Shown here: positions 3,890-59,875 of the stretch, piece after piece | Position numbering within the stretch: the first letter of the stretch is position 1 | Layout of the letters: every line of letters begins with the position of its first letter | NCBI GenBank assembly: GCA_030430575.1 | Contig: JAUIKF010000004.1 | Location: forward strand, 62,001-126,000 | Reading direction: 5' to 3' | From: Bacteroidia bacterium | GTDB taxonomy: Bacteria > Bacteroidota > Bacteroidia > J057 | Length of the DNA stretch: 64,000 nt | Notes under the pieces: generated by a model | The model's database searches: none | Told to the model about the DNA's origin: nothing | Seen by the model: the letters and a program-made list of their open reading frames with translations, nothing else | Program-made: the position numbers and the translations under genes

Positions 3890-3990
3890 AGTCTGGGGTC
3901 CGTGGTTTGTGGTCTGGTAAAGGGGGCATGGACAAACACCACAAACCACAGACTATAGACCACAAACCACAGACTATAGACCACAAACCT
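3890..3990. repeat. 21-bp tandem repeat with inverted partner between convergent genes
   Basis: A 21-bp unit (ACCACAAACCACAGACTATAG) occurs at 3938-3958 and 3959-3979, with a partial third copy at 3980-3989. Upstream at 3904-3916 lies GGTTTGTGGTCTG, which pairs with the units, so transcripts from either strand can fold into a hairpin. It is probably a terminator-like spacer. Confidence 0.7.
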
Positions 3991-6499: not shown

Positions 6500-7285
6500 T
6501 CAAACTGCTTGGAGGAAAAACGACAACTGGCCCCCTCGTCCCAGCCATCTATCAAAATTTTCTCCCAATTGGGGACGCGCATATTTTTCTACCACCAATG
6601 GCAACTGCTCCTCCAAATCGACAGGAGAAATCTCCTCATTGAGCCTCAAATAAGTGTCCATAATATGCCAAGACCAATTTTCATTGAGGTCAACGGCCTG
6701 ATGAGTGGACATAGAGAGCAACATATCGAATTGGAGGGGCGCGCAGGGCGTCATGTCATCAATGATGGCAGTGAGGGTATAGGGCTGATGATTGAGGTGA
6801 AGCTGCTGACCGAGTCGGGGATTGGGACCAAAATATCTTTCTGAACTACTTCTCGTCATCACGACAGAATAAGGCTGAGTGAGGGCATTATCTTGATCTC
6901 CCGCCTTCATTTCTACATCAAAAACCTCAAAAAAGGCCTCATCTGCACGGAAAATATGATTTTCATGAAATACTTTTCCTTCGTATCGTCCTACCGAAAA
7001 CCCTTCTGGTAGGATGCGGGTAACCGCTTTTACCTCCTCTTGAAACTCTTGCGTGAGCACATTGGCAAGTGGGGGGGGCGAAGCTACTTCTGAGGCAGAC
7101 TGCCCAGGCTGGCCTAGCAAAGCACCGACCGCATAGACTTGTTTGCCTGTCTTGTCAAGTTCTAGCTTGTGATGGGTAGAAGAATATGAGAGAATGAGGA
7201 TCGCTAAGCCCGTCAAGCTGATCATACTAATGATCCAGAAAAGCGGTTTGTAGCGCCAATTGTGTAAGGGAGACATACCTTCCAT
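6500..7285 (-). CDS. Half-length permease-like protein (MacB periplasmic core domain only)
   Basis: The product is 261 residues. One N-terminal transmembrane helix (about residues 15-34, LFWIISMISLTGLAILILSY) is followed by a MacB-type periplasmic core: EVKAVTRILPEGF, FRADEAFFEVFDVEMKAGD, YSVVMTRSSSERYFGPNPRLGQ and YTLTAIIDDM. It ends at GGQLSFFLQAV, the point where full-length relatives continue into the FtsX helix bundle. Only 97 bp separate it from the next gene, so the missing two thirds are not present in another frame. A second Met lies at 7276. It is either a deletion remnant or an accessory subunit. It is the first gene behind the sigma-54-like promoter and tandem palindromes (7375-7491), which argues that it is still expressed. 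Confidence 0.72.
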   Translation of the reverse strand: MEGMSPLHNWRYKPLFWIISMISLTGLAILILSYSSTHHKLELDKTGKQVYAVGALLGQPGQSASEVASPPPLANVLTQEFQEEVKAVTRILPEGFSVGRYEGKVFHENHIFRADEAFFEVFDVEMKAGDQDNALTQPYSVVMTRSSSERYFGPNPRLGQQLHLNHQPYTLTAIIDDMTPCAPLQFDMLLSMSTHQAVDLNENWSWHIMDTYLRLNEEISPVDLEEQLPLVVEKYARPQLGENFDRWLGRGGQLSFFLQAV

Positions 7286-7374
7286 AAGCTTTCTGTGGTT
7301 TGAAAGAATAAGAGTGGAGGTTGATCAACAAATGATCTTTCATGGATTTTGCCAAATGTCTACTTAAAATACGC

Positions 7375-7389
7375 GCAAGGATTATTCCA
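7375..7389 (-). promoter_or_regulatory. Sigma-54-type -24/-12 promoter candidate for the permease genes
   Basis: On the minus strand the sequence is TGGAATAATCCTTGC. The -24 GG (7387-7388) and -12 GC (7375-7376) are separated by exactly 10 bases, as required for sigma-54, and TTGC matches the -12 consensus. Expected transcript start is near 7363, giving a leader of about 78 nt. Two tandem palindromes lie 66 bp upstream of the GG. Confidence 0.6.
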
Positions 7390-7453
7390 CCAAGTCAATT
7401 ATCTGATAGTCAGTTGGTTATAGTTCGTTGTTGGGTGAATCTTGCTAATATTT

Positions 7454-7491
7454 GTTCCATATTGGAACGAATTATTGTTTCATATTGAAAC
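7454..7491 (-). promoter_or_regulatory. Tandem palindromic operator (activator site) upstream of the permease genes
   Basis: Two 15-mers with 6-3-6 symmetry: GTTCCATATTGGAAC (7454-7468) and GTTTCATATTGAAAC (7477-7491), separated by 8 bp, so their starts are 23 bp apart. The position, about 90-130 bp upstream of the predicted start, suits an NtrC-type enhancer-binding protein. The same arrangement occurs at 58525-58562. Confidence 0.7.
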
Positions 7492-31732: not shown

Positions 31733-33025
31733 GTGCTCCTGATTGCAACGGGAGCCTTTGCACTCATGTACTGCATATTTTTTACCCAAATGTATGTAGT
31801 GACTTTTCTGACGGGTTTAGCGGTGATTGGGCTGGTGGTTGAAATGATTCATTACATCGATCGGACGAATCGAGACATCGCCTCTTTCTTGCTCTCAATG
31901 CGTCATGACGACTTCTCGACTTCCTTCAATAGCACCCGCATGGGGCGGTCCTTTCGGGAGTTGTATGGCTCATTTAACGAAATCACAGAAGTCTTCCAGC
32001 GTATCCGCGCCGAAAAAGAGACCAACTTCCAGTACTTGCAAACAGTGGTCAAACACGTGAATGTGGGGCTGTTGTGTTTTGAGGAAAATGGAGAGGTGCA
32101 GTTAATGAATCGGACGTTGCAGCAATTATTAAATAAGCCCTACCTCACCCATATCCATGCCCTGGAAAAGATCGCGCCTGAACTCCTCGAAGGCGTCAGA
32201 ACCCTCCAACCGGGTGAACGAGAACTCGTCAAGGTCACGCTCCAGGGAGAAGTGCACCAGCTCGCGATGCGGGCGGTGGAGTTTAAACTCCAAGACACGC
32301 CCTATAAGCTGATTTCTATGCAGGATATTCAAGGGGAATTGGAGGTAAATGAGCTGGAAGCTTGGCAAAAGCTCATTCGCATCCTCACGCATGAAATCAT
32401 GAATTCGGTCAGCCCAATCGTATCACTGACAGCGACGATTCAAGATATGCTTCAGGAGGATGAGGTGGCTGATAGTGAGTCGATTACAGATATGCGAGAT
32501 GCTGTAGGGGCCATCAATAAACGCAGCCAAGGCTTGCTGCATTTCACCGAAGCCTATCGCGATCTTACCCGAGTTCCTGTGCCCCAATTACAAACTATTA
32601 GTGCCAAAGAATTGCTGGAGGGGTTGGAAGTATTGTTTCGGGCAAATTTGGACGAAAAAGGGGTGAAAATGGACCTCCATTTACCTGCCAAGGACTTCTC
32701 CTTCCAAGCTGATCCCGAACTATTGGAACAAGTCCTCATCAACCTCATCAAGAATGCCCTAGATGCTTTGGAAGGGCTTCCGCTGGCTACGGTCAGCTTG
32801 GCGGCCCAGATGAATGAACAGGGTAAAACCCAACTTACTGTAAGCGATAATGGTCCCGGCATTTCTCCAGAACTCCTGGAGCAGATTTTTGTGCCGTTCT
32901 TCACCACCAAAGGCACAGGTTCAGGCATTGGCCTCAGCCTCTCACGCCAGATCATGCGCCGCCACAAGGGTAGCCTCTCGGTCCAGTCTGTCCCAGGCCG
33001 CACGACCTTCACCGTGCAACTGTGA
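31733..33025 (+). CDS. Sensor histidine kinase, NtrY/AtoS-like
   Basis: The product is 430 residues from a GTG. The frame is open upstream to 31670, and the segment before it (KINIKGFRINITLR) looks coding, so the true start may be a rare ATT near 31694. Two transmembrane helices lie in residues 1-45. A PAS-like domain includes VVKHVNVGLLCFEENGEVQLMNRTLQQLL, the dimerisation and phosphoacceptor helix is ILTHEIMNSVSPIVSL (His in H-E-I-M-N), and the HATPase boxes are LINLIKNALDAL (N), DNGPGI (G1), FVPFFTT (F) and GTGSGIGLSLSRQI (G2). H-E-I-M-N-S kinases usually pair with sigma-54 activators. No response regulator gene is in the window. A permease gene follows 180 bp downstream. Confidence 0.88.
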   Translation: MLLIATGAFALMYCIFFTQMYVVTFLTGLAVIGLVVEMIHYIDRTNRDIASFLLSMRHDDFSTSFNSTRMGRSFRELYGSFNEITEVFQRIRAEKETNFQYLQTVVKHVNVGLLCFEENGEVQLMNRTLQQLLNKPYLTHIHALEKIAPELLEGVRTLQPGERELVKVTLQGEVHQLAMRAVEFKLQDTPYKLISMQDIQGELEVNELEAWQKLIRILTHEIMNSVSPIVSLTATIQDMLQEDEVADSESITDMRDAVGAINKRSQGLLHFTEAYRDLTRVPVPQLQTISAKELLEGLEVLFRANLDEKGVKMDLHLPAKDFSFQADPELLEQVLINLIKNALDALEGLPLATVSLAAQMNEQGKTQLTVSDNGPGISPELLEQIFVPFFTTKGTGSGIGLSLSRQIMRRHKGSLSVQSVPGRTTFTVQL

Positions 33026-33037
33026 AGAATTATTAAT

Positions 33038-33113
33038 AAGTTCAAGTATCAAGCACAAATTCAAGCTCAAGAAGCCACCTTTTGAATTTGTACTTGTATT
33101 TGAGTTTGAACTT
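33038..33113. repeat. Inverted repeat of GTTCAA/AAGTAC words
   Basis: AAGTTCAAGTATCAAGCACA (from 33038) pairs imperfectly with the region ending TTGAGTTTGAACTT (to 33113). It lies downstream of the kinase stop and could terminate its transcript. Confidence 0.5.
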
Positions 33114-33136
33114 CTCTTTTTATTCTATCATTCTCT

Positions 33137-33192
33137 CATCCATTCATCCATTCATCCATTCATCCATTCATCCATTCATTCACTCATTCACT
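33137..33192 (+). repeat. 8-bp tandem repeat (microsatellite) in front of a permease gene
   Basis: There are five perfect CATCCATT units (33137-33176) and then two CATTCACT variants (33177-33192), ending 14 bp before the permease ATG. The unit is not a multiple of three and lies in the promoter/leader zone, so slippage could change spacing or leader structure. Confidence 0.9.
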
Positions 33193-33206
33193 CATTTCCC
33201 CTCCCC

Positions 33207-35549
33207 ATGCTATCCAACTACCTCAAAACAGCCTTCCGCGCACTCTGGCGTCAGAAGCTCTATTCCCTCATCAATATCTTGGGCTTGTCCATCGGCTTGG
33301 CTACCTGCATGCTGATTTTGCTCTATGTTCAGGATGAATTGAGTTTTGATCAGTTCCATGAGAAGAAAGCGCGGATTTATCGCGTGACGACCTCTTTCGA
33401 AAATGGCAATCATTGGGCGGTGCCTTCCTTTCCCGTAGGCCCTGCGCTGAAAGCAGACTACCCAGAAGTGGAGGACGCATGTCGGATGATTTATTGGGGA
33501 AATGTGCTGATGACACTGGGGGATGATAAACGGAGTGAATCTTACTTCAGGTTTGTCGATCCTTCGATCTTTGAGGTGTTGTCATTTCCTTTAGTCGCTG
33601 GGGATCCCCAAAAGGCGCTTTCAGCCCCCTATAATATGGTGTTGACTGAGACCAAGGCACGGGAATTCTTCGGAGAAGGAGAGGCCATGGGCAAACAGTT
33701 GACCGTCAAACAAGGAGAAACAGAGAAGCTATTTACCATAACAGGTATTGCAAAAGATCCTCCTCCCAATTCAAGTGTGGAGTTTAATTTTTTGGTACCC
33801 TTCCAGACGGCTGAGGAATACGGGATGAATTTGGAGAATTGGGGAAACTGGGGCCCAGAGACGTATGTGTTGCTTAATCATGAGGTGTCCGTTGATGCCT
33901 TTGAACCGAAGATCGGGAACTTTATTTTTGAGAAATCTAAACAAGGGAAAACGGCGACACTTCACCTCCAGCCGATCTCTCGGGTGCATCTCTATCCCCT
34001 AGAAGGAGGCAATGGCCGCATCACGTATGTCTACCTTTTTTCCATTATCGCCTTATTCATTCTGCTCATTGCCTGTATCAACTTCATGAATTTGACGACG
34101 GCCCGCTCTATGATTCGAGCGCGGGAGATCGGCGTGCGCAAGGTCGTTGGCGCTAAGCGATCAGACCTGATCTTTCAGTTTTACAGCGAGTCGATCTTGC
34201 TTTCATTTATCGCCGCTGGCATCGCCATCGGCTGGGTGGCCCTGTTGCTGCCAGGGTTTAATATCCTGGCGGAGAAGGAGTTGACCTGGATGGAAAGCTC
34301 TGTGTTTGGGTATTTGTTGATCATTACCCTTGTAACAGGCTTATTATCAGGGAGCTATCCCGCTTTGTCGCTTTCTTCCTTTAGGCCTGTGCTTGTGCTA
34401 AAAGGCGCATTTAAAACGAGCCGCAGAGGCATATTTTTGCGAAAAATCCTCGTGGTGACCCAATTCTGTATTTCCATTATCCTCATCATCTGTACCCTCA
34501 TCACCCGCGATCAATTGACCTTTATTCAGCAAAAATCGCTGGGATACGACAAAGACCAGGTCCTTTATATTCAAGACGTCGCGGACTTCATGAATAAATA
34601 CCCGCGCATCAAACCTGCGCTGCTCAAGAGCCCGCATATCCACCATGTGACGGCTTCGAGTAGCCTTCCCACAGCGATTTACACCCACGGGGGTGTGCCT
34701 GACTACGAAGGTCGCGACCCCGAAAGGACCATGGATTTCCTCTTTACCAATGTAGCCTTTGACTATCCCGAGACCTTCGGAATGGAAATGGCAGAAGGGC
34801 GCAGTTTCTCCATTGATTTTCCCTCTGACAGCACCCAAGCATACCTGCTCAACGAAGAGGCCGTCCGCCAAATGGAACTCGAAAACCCACTCGGCACCAA
34901 ATTGAACTTCTGGGGCAATGATGGGCAGGTCGTAGGCGTGGTGAAAGACTTTCACTTTTCCTCCTTTCGTGAAGGCATTGAGCCGCTCCTGATCCGCGTC
35001 AATTTCAATTGGCTGGAGTATGTCTGCATCAAGCTGGAAGCAGGCCGTATGCAAGAAGGTCTCGCACATATCGAGAAGGTTTGGGAGCAATACATGGGCA
35101 CCGTCCCTTTTGACTATCACTTTGTGGATGAGTCTTTTGAAGAGACGTTTGAGGCGGATCAAAAAGTCTCGACGATCTTCACCTATTTTGCCTATCTCGG
35201 CATCTTCATCTCCTGTCTTGGCCTACTCGGCCTAGCCGCCTTCATGGCGCAGCAGCGCCGCAAGGAGATCGGCATCCGCAAGGTCATGGGCGCCAGCGTC
35301 TCCCAACTCGTGCGCATGCTCACCCGCGAATTCACCAAACTGGTGGTATTTGCCTTTATCCCCGCGGCCTTGCTCGCGTTTTACTTCATGCACACCTGGC
35401 TCGCAGGATTTGCCTACCGAACGGCGATCAGCCCGTGGATCTTTATGCTGGCGGGTGGCGCAGCCCTGCTGATCGCCTGGCTGACGGTGAGTTGGCAGTC
35501 GTTTCGGGCGGCGAGTATCAATCCGGTGGAGGCGTTGAGGGATGAGTGA
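33207..35549 (+). CDS. ABC transporter permease, MacB/FtsX family
   Basis: The product is 780 residues from MLSNYLKTAFRALWRQKLYS. The frame is open far upstream through the 8-bp repeat, but family members start here. The order is: first helix (SLINILGLSIGLATCMLILLYV), periplasmic core with RIYRVTTSFENG and LVAGDPQKALSAPYNMVLTE, FtsX bundle (YLFSIIALFILLIACINFMN; EIGVRKVVGAKRSDLIFQFY), second core (DQVLYIQDVADFMNKYP), and final bundle with EIGIRKVMGASVSQLVRML, ending NPVEALRDE. It lacks an ATPase domain and presumably pairs with a LolD-like ATPase. It is a full-length homologue of the gene at 3994, but the tandem palindromes seen there are not found here. Confidence 0.88.
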   Translation: MLSNYLKTAFRALWRQKLYSLINILGLSIGLATCMLILLYVQDELSFDQFHEKKARIYRVTTSFENGNHWAVPSFPVGPALKADYPEVEDACRMIYWGNVLMTLGDDKRSESYFRFVDPSIFEVLSFPLVAGDPQKALSAPYNMVLTETKAREFFGEGEAMGKQLTVKQGETEKLFTITGIAKDPPPNSSVEFNFLVPFQTAEEYGMNLENWGNWGPETYVLLNHEVSVDAFEPKIGNFIFEKSKQGKTATLHLQPISRVHLYPLEGGNGRITYVYLFSIIALFILLIACINFMNLTTARSMIRAREIGVRKVVGAKRSDLIFQFYSESILLSFIAAGIAIGWVALLLPGFNILAEKELTWMESSVFGYLLIITLVTGLLSGSYPALSLSSFRPVLVLKGAFKTSRRGIFLRKILVVTQFCISIILIICTLITRDQLTFIQQKSLGYDKDQVLYIQDVADFMNKYPRIKPALLKSPHIHHVTASSSLPTAIYTHGGVPDYEGRDPERTMDFLFTNVAFDYPETFGMEMAEGRSFSIDFPSDSTQAYLLNEEAVRQMELENPLGTKLNFWGNDGQVVGVVKDFHFSSFREGIEPLLIRVNFNWLEYVCIKLEAGRMQEGLAHIEKVWEQYMGTVPFDYHFVDESFEETFEADQKVSTIFTYFAYLGIFISCLGLLGLAAFMAQQRRKEIGIRKVMGASVSQLVRMLTREFTKLVVFAFIPAALLAFYFMHTWLAGFAYRTAISPWIFMLAGGAALLIAWLTVSWQSFRAASINPVEALRDE

Positions 35550-57703: not shown

Positions 57704-58396
57704 TTATCCTGCTCTATTCTCTTCTGTCAGGTGCTCTTCTTCAATCCATCCATCTTTTAAACGGACAATTCGATTGCCATAACGGGCATTCTTATCTGAA
57801 TGCGTCACCTGGACGATGGTCATCCCGTCATTATTCAATTGTTTAAAAAGATCCATGATCTCTTCTCCTTGTTTGGTGTGGAGGTTGCCGGTAGGCTCAT
57901 CGGCGAGGAGCAGGGCTGGCTTGCCAATGATGGCACGGGCTACGCCTACGACTTGCTGTTGGCCGCCAGAAAGCTGATGAGGAAAAAGGTCTTTTTTGGC
58001 TACCATATTGAAGCGATCTAGCATTTCTGCTACCATACTTTTTCGCTCGCTACCTTTGATTTTTTTATATAAAAGAGGTGTCTCAATGTTTTCATATACC
58101 GTCAGCTCGTCAATCAGGTGATAAGCTTGAAAAACAAATCCAATATGGTTTTGGTGGATTTTGGTGCGCTGGCGCTCATTGAACTTATGCGTTGCCTGTC
58201 CATTGAAATGGTATTCACCACTATTGGGCTTTTCTAATAACCCTAAGATATTGAGCAAGGTAGACTTGCCAGCCCCACTAGGCCCCATGATCGTTACAAA
58301 TTCTCCTTCTTTGATCGTGAGGCTTATGTCGCGCAGCACATACGTTCGCTGCATACCTGCTTTGTAGTACCTTTCTATGTTTTTGATGTCAATCAT
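57704..58396 (-). CDS. ABC transporter ATP-binding protein, LolD/MacB/FtsE type
   Basis: The product is 230 residues. Walker A is GPSGAGKST (about residue 38), the Q-loop is [18 protein letters not shown], the signature is [14 protein letters not shown], Walker B is [14 protein letters not shown], and the H-loop is VTHS. Length and motifs place it in the LolD/MacB family that energises FtsX-type permeases. No permease gene adjoins it, but its upstream region (58445-58562) copies the tandem-palindrome and -24/-12 architecture found before the permease genes at 3994-7285, suggesting that they form one transporter. A G replaces the usual Arg in the signature helix (Q-V-V-G-V-A), a modest deviation. 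Confidence 0.9.
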
Positions 58397-58444
58397 GTAG
58401 GTGGTTGGTAGAATAGTTATTGGTCATTTTTTATAGAACAAAAA

Positions 58445-58459
58445 TCAAGAAACATTCCA
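58445..58459 (-). promoter_or_regulatory. Sigma-54-like -24/-12 promoter candidate for the ABC ATPase gene
   Basis: The minus strand reads TGGAATGTTTCTTGA. The TGGAAT half is identical to the element at 7384-7389, and TTG(A) takes the place of TTG(C) at the same spacing. The -12 position departs from the usual GC, so activity is uncertain. The leader would be about 38 nt. Confidence 0.45.
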
Positions 58460-58477
58460 TTCTCTTAAGGTAGTGAA

Positions 58478-58493
58478 TGTCAATCAATTGACA
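58478..58493. promoter_or_regulatory. Additional palindrome TGTCAAT-CA-ATTGACA
   Basis: A 7-bp-arm palindrome lies between the -24 element and the tandem operators. A different symmetry suggests a second regulator or local supercoil-sensitive site. Confidence 0.5.
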
Positions 58494-58524
58494 TAAATCA
58501 GGCTGAAAAGGTTGCGCACCTCCT

Positions 58525-58562
58525 GTATCATGGTGATACAATTTGCTGTGCCAATCTGGAAC
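58525..58562 (-). promoter_or_regulatory. Tandem palindromic operator upstream of the ABC ATPase gene
   Basis: GTATCATGGTGATAC (58525-58539) and GTGCCAATCTGGAAC (58548-58562, one mismatch in the arms) have the 6-3-6 form. They are 8 bp apart and start-to-start 23 bp, as at 7454-7491. They lie 67 bp upstream of the -24 GG versus 66 bp at the permease locus. The divergent gene at 58613 starts 50 bp away. Confidence 0.68.
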
Positions 58563-58612: not shown

Positions 58613-58978
58613 ATGTCAGAATATAAACGCTTTAAACGAATGCTGAAAAGCATGATGCCAGATTTTTCCCTCAAACGGAAAACCATTGATCACTATTATG
58701 AACCTGAGGATGCACGGATGATGATCACTGACCTCGGGATGGAAATCCCTGCCAATGTCCTCAAAGCCTTGACCAATTCCGATGTGGTCTTGGATGAGTT
58801 TGTCACGGGCGTTTATTTAGTAGAAGATGAGGTAGGGGAAAAAATAGTCACAGACTTCGCTACGATTGATAGTCAATATGATCCCAAGGTCTATCAAGAG
58901 GGCAACATGATTGGCTTCACGGTGAGCTATAAAGGCGAGCGAATCGTCTTTGCTGAATTTAAGCTGAACTTTAAGTAA
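58613..58978 (+). CDS. Conserved hypothetical small protein
   Basis: The product is 121 residues, basic at the N-terminus (MSEYKRFKRMLKSMMPDFSLKRK), then acidic and mixed alpha/beta (EDARMMITDLGMEIPANVLKAL; LDEFVTGVYLVEDEVGEKIVTDF; IGFTVSYKGERIVFAEFKL). There is no signal peptide or membrane helix, and no family is recognised. It is divergent from the ABC ATPase gene and convergent with prmC. The frame is intact and well-composed, so it is probably real. Confidence 0.7.
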   Translation: MSEYKRFKRMLKSMMPDFSLKRKTIDHYYEPEDARMMITDLGMEIPANVLKALTNSDVVLDEFVTGVYLVEDEVGEKIVTDFATIDSQYDPKVYQEGNMIGFTVSYKGERIVFAEFKLNFK

Positions 58979-58993
58979 AGGGACCTGCTGGCT

Positions 58994-59875
58994 TTACTTA
59001 ATTGGACGTCTTGCTTTTACCATGCGATCCTTCCCCTTAAGGTCTTGTCGAACAATTATTTCAAGGTATCCTCTTTGTTGAAGCAAATCTTTTATACGCT
59101 CACCCATCGCTTCATTGATCTCAAAAAATAACATTCCCCCAGGGCGTAACCAATGAAAGGCGCAGTCCGCAATTTTTTCATAGAAGATTGTGGGATCCTC
59201 ATCCGCTACAAATAATGCGGTAGCAGGTTCATGTGCCAACACATTGTCATGCATATATTGACGCTCAGACTTCCTTACATAAGGAGGATTGCTGACAACA
59301 ACGCTCAAGCCTTCAAAATCATCATGCTGAGCTGACAAGATATCCCGCTGATGGAATATGACCGGTGCCCCTAGCTGCTCTGCATTTACTTTGGCTACTT
59401 CCAGGGCTGATGAACTGACATCCAAGGCTTGTACATTGGCTGCTTTTCCCAGTTCTAGCTGAAGCGTAATGGGAATACATCCACTACCTGTTCCAATATC
59501 GAGAATTTGATGGGGAAAAGGGGGTGGAGAAGATAACTCCTTTAATACCCAGTGAACAAGCTCCTCTGTTTCTGGGCGTGGAATCAGCACATGCTCATTT
59601 ACCATGAAATCCCTTCCATAAAAAGGAGCCTTACCCAAAACGTATTGGATGGGCTCTCCAGTGATCAGACGACGAGCTAGCTTCTTCGCTAGTTGATGCG
59701 TGGTAGATGAAAGGGCTTTTTGGGGATGCATCGCCAATCGGCCCCACGCCTGACCTGTAAGGTCTTCTAGAAGCCATTGCGCAATAGCTGTTGCTTCTTG
59801 GGGAGCATATAGCGGCAGGAGTTGAGATGTAAGCCAGTCCCGAAAAGCCTTTATATATATAGGTATAGGCGTCAT
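58994..59875 (-). CDS. prmC: Peptide chain release factor N5-glutamine methyltransferase (PrmC/HemK)
   Basis: The product is 293 residues. The N-terminal helical recognition domain contains ITGEPIQYVLGKAPFYGRDFMVNEHVLIPRPETEELV, the family hallmark. The SAM-binding motif is ILDIGTGSGCIPITL (about residue 123), and the catalytic N-P-P-Y is in VVSNPPYVRKSE (about residue 197). The GGMLFFEINEAMGERIKDLL block follows. It methylates the Gln of the GGQ motif in release factors RF1 and RF2. A short gap separates it from the gldN-like gene, which is divergent. Confidence 0.93.
   Translation of the reverse strand: MTPIPIYIKAFRDWLTSQLLPLYAPQEATAIAQWLLEDLTGQAWGRLAMHPQKALSSTTHQLAKKLARRLITGEPIQYVLGKAPFYGRDFMVNEHVLIPRPETEELVHWVLKELSSPPPFPHQILDIGTGSGCIPITLQLELGKAANVQALDVSSSALEVAKVNAEQLGAPVIFHQRDILSAQHDDFEGLSVVVSNPPYVRKSERQYMHDNVLAHEPATALFVADEDPTIFYEKIADCAFHWLRPGGMLFFEINEAMGERIKDLLQQRGYLEIIVRQDLKGKDRMVKARRPIK

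Follow-up and report, generated by a model that had tools for sequence, protein, structure and literature searches.

Permeases of the ADOP family (TIGR03434) have an internal duplication of the permease domain and no adjacent ATPase gene, and the Dar exporter has one ATPase. In the darobactin exporter DarBCD (NF038008/NF038010/NF038007) a duplicated permease of ~780 aa is accompanied by a separate adaptor and a separate ATPase, and MacAB-TolC brings together MacB_PCD and FtsX domains, an HlyD/RND-type adaptor and the MacB nucleotide-binding domains. ATPases common to several transporters are also known, MsmK and MsmX being examples. MceG of mycobacteria is described as a shared ATPase serving several transporters (PMC9947336). 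For Bacteroidia, a 2025 study reports an enrichment of predicted sigma-54 promoters ahead of COG0577/FtsX-like permeases (PMC12316311); it concerns the same phylum as ours and ties sigma-54 to the same permease family, and its accessible part gives no operator, activator, shared ATPase or adaptor. A sigma-54 motif has been described in a flavobacterium in a paper whose main text contains neither "permease" nor "ABC transporter" (PMC9723704), and the terms sought were also absent from the main text of a paper on sigma-54 and the bacterial exterior (PMC3162934). No description of the operator reported here, or of a shared ATPase for these permeases, was recognized among the titles and abstract openings of the open-licence literature.

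We analyzed a 64,000-nucleotide stretch of DNA, hereafter the window (C107:62001-126000), from an 8.16-Mb Bacteroidia genome of 127 contigs. It carries an orphan ABC ATPase gene (ATPase-B) and an operon with an ADOP-like duplicated permease (Table 1). The window permease matches TIGR03434 over nearly its full length, with two halves and no adjacent ATPase as in ADOP, but three of the permeases score 224.0, 280.1, and 327.8 bits, below the cut-off of 622.3, and no match above that cut-off was found in any of 148 Bacteroidota genomes. The Dar models are the best NCBIfam matches for the adaptor and both ATPases of the system described here, with all scores below the cut-offs (DarC 192.5 against 450; DarD 286.9 for ATPase-A and 249.3 for ATPase-B against 375; DarB 110-151 against 700), and the difference from DarBCD lies in the presence of two ATPases and many permeases. 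Domains, adaptor type and a MacB-like ATPase are shared with MacAB-TolC, from which the system differs in that the ATPase is a separate gene and the permease is internally duplicated and lacks an ATPase of its own. As for MceG and MsmK/MsmX, one unlinked ATPase would serve several transporters, although the transporter families are unrelated. We know of no A/B ATPase pair with this operator among shared-ATPase systems.

Table 1. Positions of the exporter genes and promoter elements in the window.
Feature	Position	Strand	Description
ADOP-like duplicated permease, 815 aa	3994..6441	(-)	2 MacB_PCD + 2 FtsX stretches
Stand-alone MacB-like periplasmic core domain protein, 261 aa	6500..7285	(-)	Pfam; no FtsX domain found
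Sigma-54 -24/-12 type element TGGAATAATCCTTGCG	7374..7389	(-)	operator to TGG = 64 bp
IHF-like box TATCAGATAATTG	7396..7408	(-)	9/9 to WATCARNNNNTTR; end 6 bp ahead of -24 element
Tandem 15-bp palindromes, putative operator	7454..7491	(-)	ahead of permease operon; 23-bp period
ATPase-B, orphan ABC ATPase, MacB/LolD/DarD superfamily	57704..58396	(-)	Pfam ABC_tran 123.8 bits; D-loop GNLH
Sigma-54 -24/-12 type element TGGAATGTTTCTTGAT	58444..58459	(-)	operator to TGG = 65 bp
Tandem 15-bp palindromes, putative operator	58525..58562	(-)	ahead of ATPase-B gene; 23-bp period

The two loci probably belong to one dispersed sigma-54 regulon whose product is a modular tripartite ABC exporter. The regulon would be of a known type, and so would the exporter, here in a dispersed form with a shared motor. 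At the level of sequence, a shared promoter architecture and its conservation, a gene cluster in relatives, co-occurrence across genomes and an altered D-loop are all demonstrated in the sections below.

The window promoters and their probable regulon

The operator of ATPase-B consists of GTATCATGGTGATAC (6/6 pairs) and GTGCCAATCTGGAAC (5/6) with an 8-bp linker and a 23-bp period, and that of the permease operon of GTTCCATATTGGAAC and GTTTCATATTGAAAC, with 6/6 pairs each and the same 6-3-6 form. Tandem operators of this form, linker and period are thus present at both places, as the first-pass annotation had described; its distances of 67 and 66 bp to the sigma-54 element were rejected for those measured from operator edge to TGG (Table 1), and the 1-bp difference between the sites stood. 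The sigma-54 consensus is TGGCAC-N5-TTGC, and TGG-N8-TTG, which has the -24/-12 spacing, was found at both window promoters and at nine further promoters of the source genome (AGG at C117). There are six 23-bp-spaced pairs of 6-3-6 palindromes with at least 5/6 pairs each in the window; by reading, the two operators are the only ones among them in which every half-site, four of four, has the GT...AC ends.

No FtsX permease adjoins ATPase-B and no matched ABC ATPase adjoins the window permeases, in agreement with the earlier description of a LolD/MacB-type ATPase without an adjacent permease and of permeases without an adjacent ATPase. The source genome has 85 FtsX-domain matches, from which 36 duplicated permeases of about 800-900 aa were listed. 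An ATPase-B search (E<=1e-6) of the stretches around the duplicated permeases found no ATPase gene adjoining any of them, the nearest matches being two of 24-26% identity several kb away. The 261-aa core-domain protein has an ortholog (49% identity) ahead of the orthologous permease in the closest relative (L179:5709-6344); because a similar stand-alone stretch occupies the same place there, 6500-7285 looks like a conserved small gene, and we rejected the possibility that it is a broken permease.

Several other features of the window were observed. Positions 32850-35549 hold a further duplicated permease (FtsX at 34044-35525) that overlaps the end of a histidine kinase ORF (31733-33025), and composite-promoter scans found no C67-type operator (see below) at this permease/kinase pair (31733-35549). 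ATPase-B is adjoined at 58613-59875 by a 121-aa gene and a gene that is HemK/PrmC-like by reading (58994-59875), also in the closest relative (L097). By eye, short tandem repeats lie close to genes of this system at 3930-3990 of the window and near 15200 of L062 (accacaaaccacagactatag-like and aaccctgaaccctg-like).

The first-pass annotation had proposed a motif scan of the whole genome. Our operator model R1 (38 positions) was made from 13 operators, eight of the source genome and five of its closest relative (G001), and was searched over both genomes; it represents the operator alone, with the sigma-54 element left out, and is consequently a more independent test than a scan for the complete promoter. 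At E<=0.01 it identified 11 places in the source genome, namely the eight training sites, which include the operators of ATPase-B (41.3 bits, E 3.6e-5) and the window permease operon (48.7 bits), plus C62, C117, and C84. In G001 there were six places at the same threshold, with C11 untrained, and a further one, C5, at E=0.0134. All five untrained places at E<0.02 (three own, two in G001) have a sigma-54-like element 63-64 bp downstream, that of C117 with AGG in place of TGG. Four further G001 matches were weak (E 0.94-4.5). A match at C120:15708 (25 bits, E=0.105) was excluded from the regulon as no -24/-12 element was recognized nearby by eye.

The genes downstream, listed by gene order and Pfam, comprise permease operons on C107, C45 (two permeases), C38 (three permeases), C1, C66, C24, and C117, the ATPase-B gene, an AraC-type regulator gene (C62) and, on C67, an operon of an HlyD-type adaptor and a second ATPase (ATPase-A), divergent from a pair of genes for a kinase and a sigma-54 activator. 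By gene order, 10 of the 36 listed duplicated permeases are under the operator; some of the others are beside other activators with other palindromes, and for others no operator was found. The first-pass annotation had suggested that the ATPase and permeases form one complex of dispersed parts. A dispersed transporter is supported by our results, and the physical complex would follow by inference, but a scope of one ATPase and one permease is too narrow: because the operator leads six further permease operons and the adaptor/second ATPase operon, ATPase-B is probably common to many permeases and paired with ATPase-A.

One conserved regulon member, supported by Pfam, is not a transporter. At C62 (L230:4435-7076) and at C11 of G001 (L232:5636-8241) the operator lies between genes for an AraC-type regulator and a divergent beta-lactamase-family serine hydrolase that carries TPR repeats, and in both genomes the sigma-54 element faces the AraC gene. 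At C84:239-276 (L231) a complete composite promoter (operator, box, and -24/-12 element) is directed out of the contig, the gene being beyond its end.

In the source genome the sigma-54 DNA-binding domain of RpoN was matched once, on C31, and the sigma-54 activator domain 18 times, 10 of these matches being strong. The C67 operator is at the start of a gene for an NtrC-type response regulator (receiver, AAA+, and Fis-type domains), with the adaptor and ATPase-A genes opposite and a gene encoding a histidine kinase ATPase domain adjacent; G001 has the same arrangement and the same operator. The recognition helix of this activator, GRTTLYRKMNKY, is identical in the G001 ortholog (85.7% identity over the last 42 aligned residues) and absent from nine other activators of the source genome and from those compared in L151, L168, and G002. 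Based on position and helix, the C67 protein is the likely activator acting at this operator. The helix of the C34 activator is close (GRSTLYRKMEKY vs. GRTTLYRKMNKY), and that protein could read a similar site. The activators beside other duplicated permeases (C1, C56, and C45) face palindromes of other sequence, as judged partly by eye. The sigma-54 contact loop, usually GAFTGA, is GAFTDA in six of ten own activators, that of C67 included, and GAFTSA in one (L084, two in L063, L065, L061, L057, and L090 for the two forms together).

Relatives and co-occurrence

The closest relative, G001, is the Bacteroidia metagenome bin Co_bin.136, which has the best ATPase-B match (85% identity); the match in G006, of the same genus, does not differ from it in contig, position or identity, and the two are probably one genome. 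The comparison with related genomes that the first-pass annotation had also proposed found the operator to be kept in G001, where it precedes the orthologs of ATPase-B (85% identity), of the adaptor (71%), and of the permease operon (50%), together with four further permeases (C43, C68, C14, and C5), of which that on C68 lacks a standard -24 element and that on C43 has CGG. The lack of conservation in close relatives by which the annotation could have been refuted was thus not observed. The G001 ATPase-B operator was recognized by position, as it scores only 19.4 bits (E=1.87) and has a 22-bp period; a sigma-54-like element lies at 64 bp. No composite element was found ahead of ATPase-B in another relative, G008. 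The half-site form GTNYCA was seen in the source genome, G001, G008 (adaptor), and G015 (ATPase-B), whereas the palindromes of distant relatives differ, with GTTC-N6-GAAC and a period of 20-22 bp.

We compared the gene layouts of 80 loci around ATPase-B homologs by protein comparison. In several Saprospiraceae and other Bacteroidota there is an undivided cluster, with an activator divergent from adaptor, ATPase-A, ATPase-B, and permeases (L168 with a kinase; L105, L151, and L166 with no kinase called in the stretch; L101, L107, L127, L147, and L175 partial). Because some other Bacteroidota carry these genes as one cluster, the arrangement in the window can be considered the dispersed version. 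A duplicated permease on the same strand lies within 400 bp of ATPase-B in 25 of the 80 loci, and 46 have none in the stretch examined, which is incomplete for 10 of these. A composite promoter was recognized in 32 of the 80 loci by several readings combined and a scan without a shuffle control: 18 are ahead of ATPase-B (including L097), 11 ahead of a permease upstream of ATPase-B, two ahead of the adaptor and one ahead of a core-domain gene. Genome G003 is also dispersed, with such promoters at ATPase-B (L111), the adaptor (L242), and four permease genes (L236, L237 twice, and L241), and its half-site is GTTC-N6-GAAC. The shared control that had been claimed for the two window loci is therefore well supported by sequence: they have the same operator and spacing, which are kept in the closest relative, and the genes form one cluster elsewhere.

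In a set of 40 genomes, made up of the source genome and relatives, nine have full-length duplicated permeases, and these are also the nine with the A/B-type ATPase (E<=1e-62); the permease class was assigned by best E value, below 1e-90 in the nine and above 1e-45 in the rest. In a set of 148 Bacteroidota genomes of at least 90% completeness, in which at most 19 ATPase and six permease candidates per genome were scored, ATPase-B (called at >=60% identity) was identified in 32, and all 32 have both an A-like ATPase (48-55% identity to ATPase-B) and at least two duplicated permeases, statistics that ignore phylogeny. Four of the 116 genomes without ATPase-B have at least two duplicated permeases, so ATPase-B is not strictly required; all four have an A/B-type match. 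Nine genomes lack a duplicated permease and have an A/B-type match of lower identity (44-47%).

The AraC/hydrolase pair conserved in G001 is in keeping with an explanation by shared control only, in which the activator runs independent envelope functions and ATPase-B works with another, unlinked permease. We consider this unlikely given the neighborhood of ATPase-B next to duplicated permeases in the 25 relatives' loci, the linkage of the A-like ATPase and ATPase-B genes, which share a contig in 26 of the 32 genomes at distances of 0.7 to 47 kb and in several have permeases in between, and the finding that each genome with ATPase-B in the set of 148 has at least two duplicated permeases. Moreover, three other MacB/LolD-like ATPases of the source genome adjoin FtsX permeases of their own (C107:31347, C73:16100, and C56:27722).

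If the loci do belong to one exporter regulon, its operation may be envisaged as follows. The histidine kinase would phosphorylate the NtrC-like activator, both encoded on C67, which would bind at the tandem operator, two dimers probably sitting on the same helix face; the DNA would loop, with an IHF-like box ahead of most own promoters, allowing the activator to reach the sigma-54 polymerase 52-76 bp away. The adaptor (DarC/MacA-like), ATPase-A, ATPase-B, and about ten ATPase-less duplicated permeases would then be switched on together. The two ATPases would act as a motor for all of these permeases, probably paired as an asymmetric A/B heterodimer beneath each two-half permease. The result would be a modular exporter similar to DarBCD/MacAB, with one adaptor and two shared ATPases for many permeases. 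The C67 adaptor passes the RND/HlyD adaptor model TIGR01730 (141.1 bits against a cut-off of 94.9).

ATPase-B and its predicted partner

The D-loop position of ATPase-B is occupied by a residue other than aspartate in all 81 homologs (72 His, eight Gln, one Asn), and a second set of six, which overlaps the first in at least three records (L097, L098, and L165), has five His and one Asn. ATPase-A has the D-loop aspartate in 11/11 sequences and again in 11/11 of a second set. The residue after LSGGQQQ is Leu in ATPase-B (Val in the source genome) vs. Arg. ATPase-B is not clearly a dead partner, as its Walker A motif and Walker B glutamate are intact and the H-loop pattern is recognizable in 79 of the 81 homologs. 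Nucleotide-site asymmetry is known from heterodimeric ABC exporters, and an asymmetry between ATPase-B and ATPase-A would fit a two-half permease, but ATPase-B retains its catalytic glutamate. That ATPase-B, with ATPase-A, energizes the permeases, that the two form a heterodimer and that transport is in the export direction are predictions.

ATPase-B scores below the curated cut-off of each of the best 25 of 193 NCBIfam families matched. One of the models is that of LolD (TIGR02211, 200.7 bits), and the solved structures related to ATPase-B are those of MacB and LolD, so that it might be taken for the lipoprotein-release ATPase, with an incidental operator. We believe this to be very improbable: the score is far under the LolD cut-off of 307.75 and under those of ATPase-B for DarD and MacB; 116 of the 148 Bacteroidota genomes have no ATPase-B match of at least 60% identity, while lipoprotein release is expected in all Bacteroidota; and the six next-best own ATPases after ATPase-A all have the D-loop aspartate, the altered form not being seen in them.

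Taken more broadly, and tentatively, since we rate it at somewhat less than even, many Bacteroidota may run a plug-in exporter in which one adaptor and an obligate asymmetric pair of ATPases (a canonical A and a D-loop-altered B) serve dozens of interchangeable, scattered duplicated permeases, while one sigma-54 activator matches motor and permease supply via the composite promoter of tandem palindromes, IHF-like box, and -24/-12 element. If true, this would name the ATPases that drive "orphan" ADOP-like permeases. Such permeases are multiplied in Bacteroidota, with the 36 listed in the source genome and the 28 and 33 copies "of unknown function" in two Dyadobacter genomes (PMC11573002), and no named motor for them was found in the literature searched. 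The motor question is now testable, as two ATPases can be named as candidates, together with an adaptor and a likely regulator. In addition, where PMC12316311, so far as its accessible part goes, ties sigma-54 to FtsX-like permeases by enrichment, an operator, a likely activator, and genes can now be specified.

Promoter geometry and the IHF-like box

Composite promoters were found eight times in 641,092 bases of own DNA (the window together with 40 stretches chosen to surround FtsX permeases and activators) and not at all in each of six first-order Markov shuffles, a comparison that is partly circular because the consensus was tuned on these same sites. Although the motif was picked by eye and single 6-3-6 palindromes with at least 5/6 pairs are common (478 in the window), this count, the -24/-12-like elements at the five untrained model matches, and the conservation of the operator ahead of orthologs make it barely conceivable that the likeness of the promoters is due to chance or generic palindromes.

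The distances from operator to TGG in the source genome are 52, 53, 63, 64, 65, 65, 65, and 76 bp, plus 64 bp at each of C62, C117, and C84. For 12 promoters of the source genome and G001 (52, 53, 63, 63, 64, 64, 65, 65, 65, 65, 75, and 76 bp; C43, C68, C5, and C11 of G001 were outside this test and that of the box), the phasing gave R=0.90 at 11 bp, a helical period picked after inspection of the distances, a value reached by 0 of 20,000 random sets; at 10.5 bp the values were R=0.85 and 5e-5. The 29 promoters of relatives, many of which are orthologs, have distances of 43, 53-55, and 64-67 bp (R=0.90). The distances thus group near 43/54/65/76 bp, in steps of one helical turn. Near-identical promoters (L102, L136, L137, L149, L157, L161, and L163) were excluded from the 29, as were two places that had been listed twice (L242 and L247), L133, L244, and the second of the rows for each of L099, L104, and L126.

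The IHF consensus is WATCARNNNNTTR. A box matching it at 8/9 or better, ending 5-7 bp ahead of TGG, is present at 6/8 own, 3/4 G001, and 14/29 relatives' promoters, whereas the shuffled sequences gave means of 0.12, 0.06, and 0.57; since the box had come to notice on promoters of the source genome and G001, the independent look is that at the 29 relatives' promoters only. The ATPase-B promoter of the window does not have a good box (7/9). Among the G001 promoters outside the main test the match is 6/9 at C43, 9/9 at C5, and 8/9 at C11, and at C62, C117, and C84 of the source genome the box matches at 8 or 9 of 9 positions.
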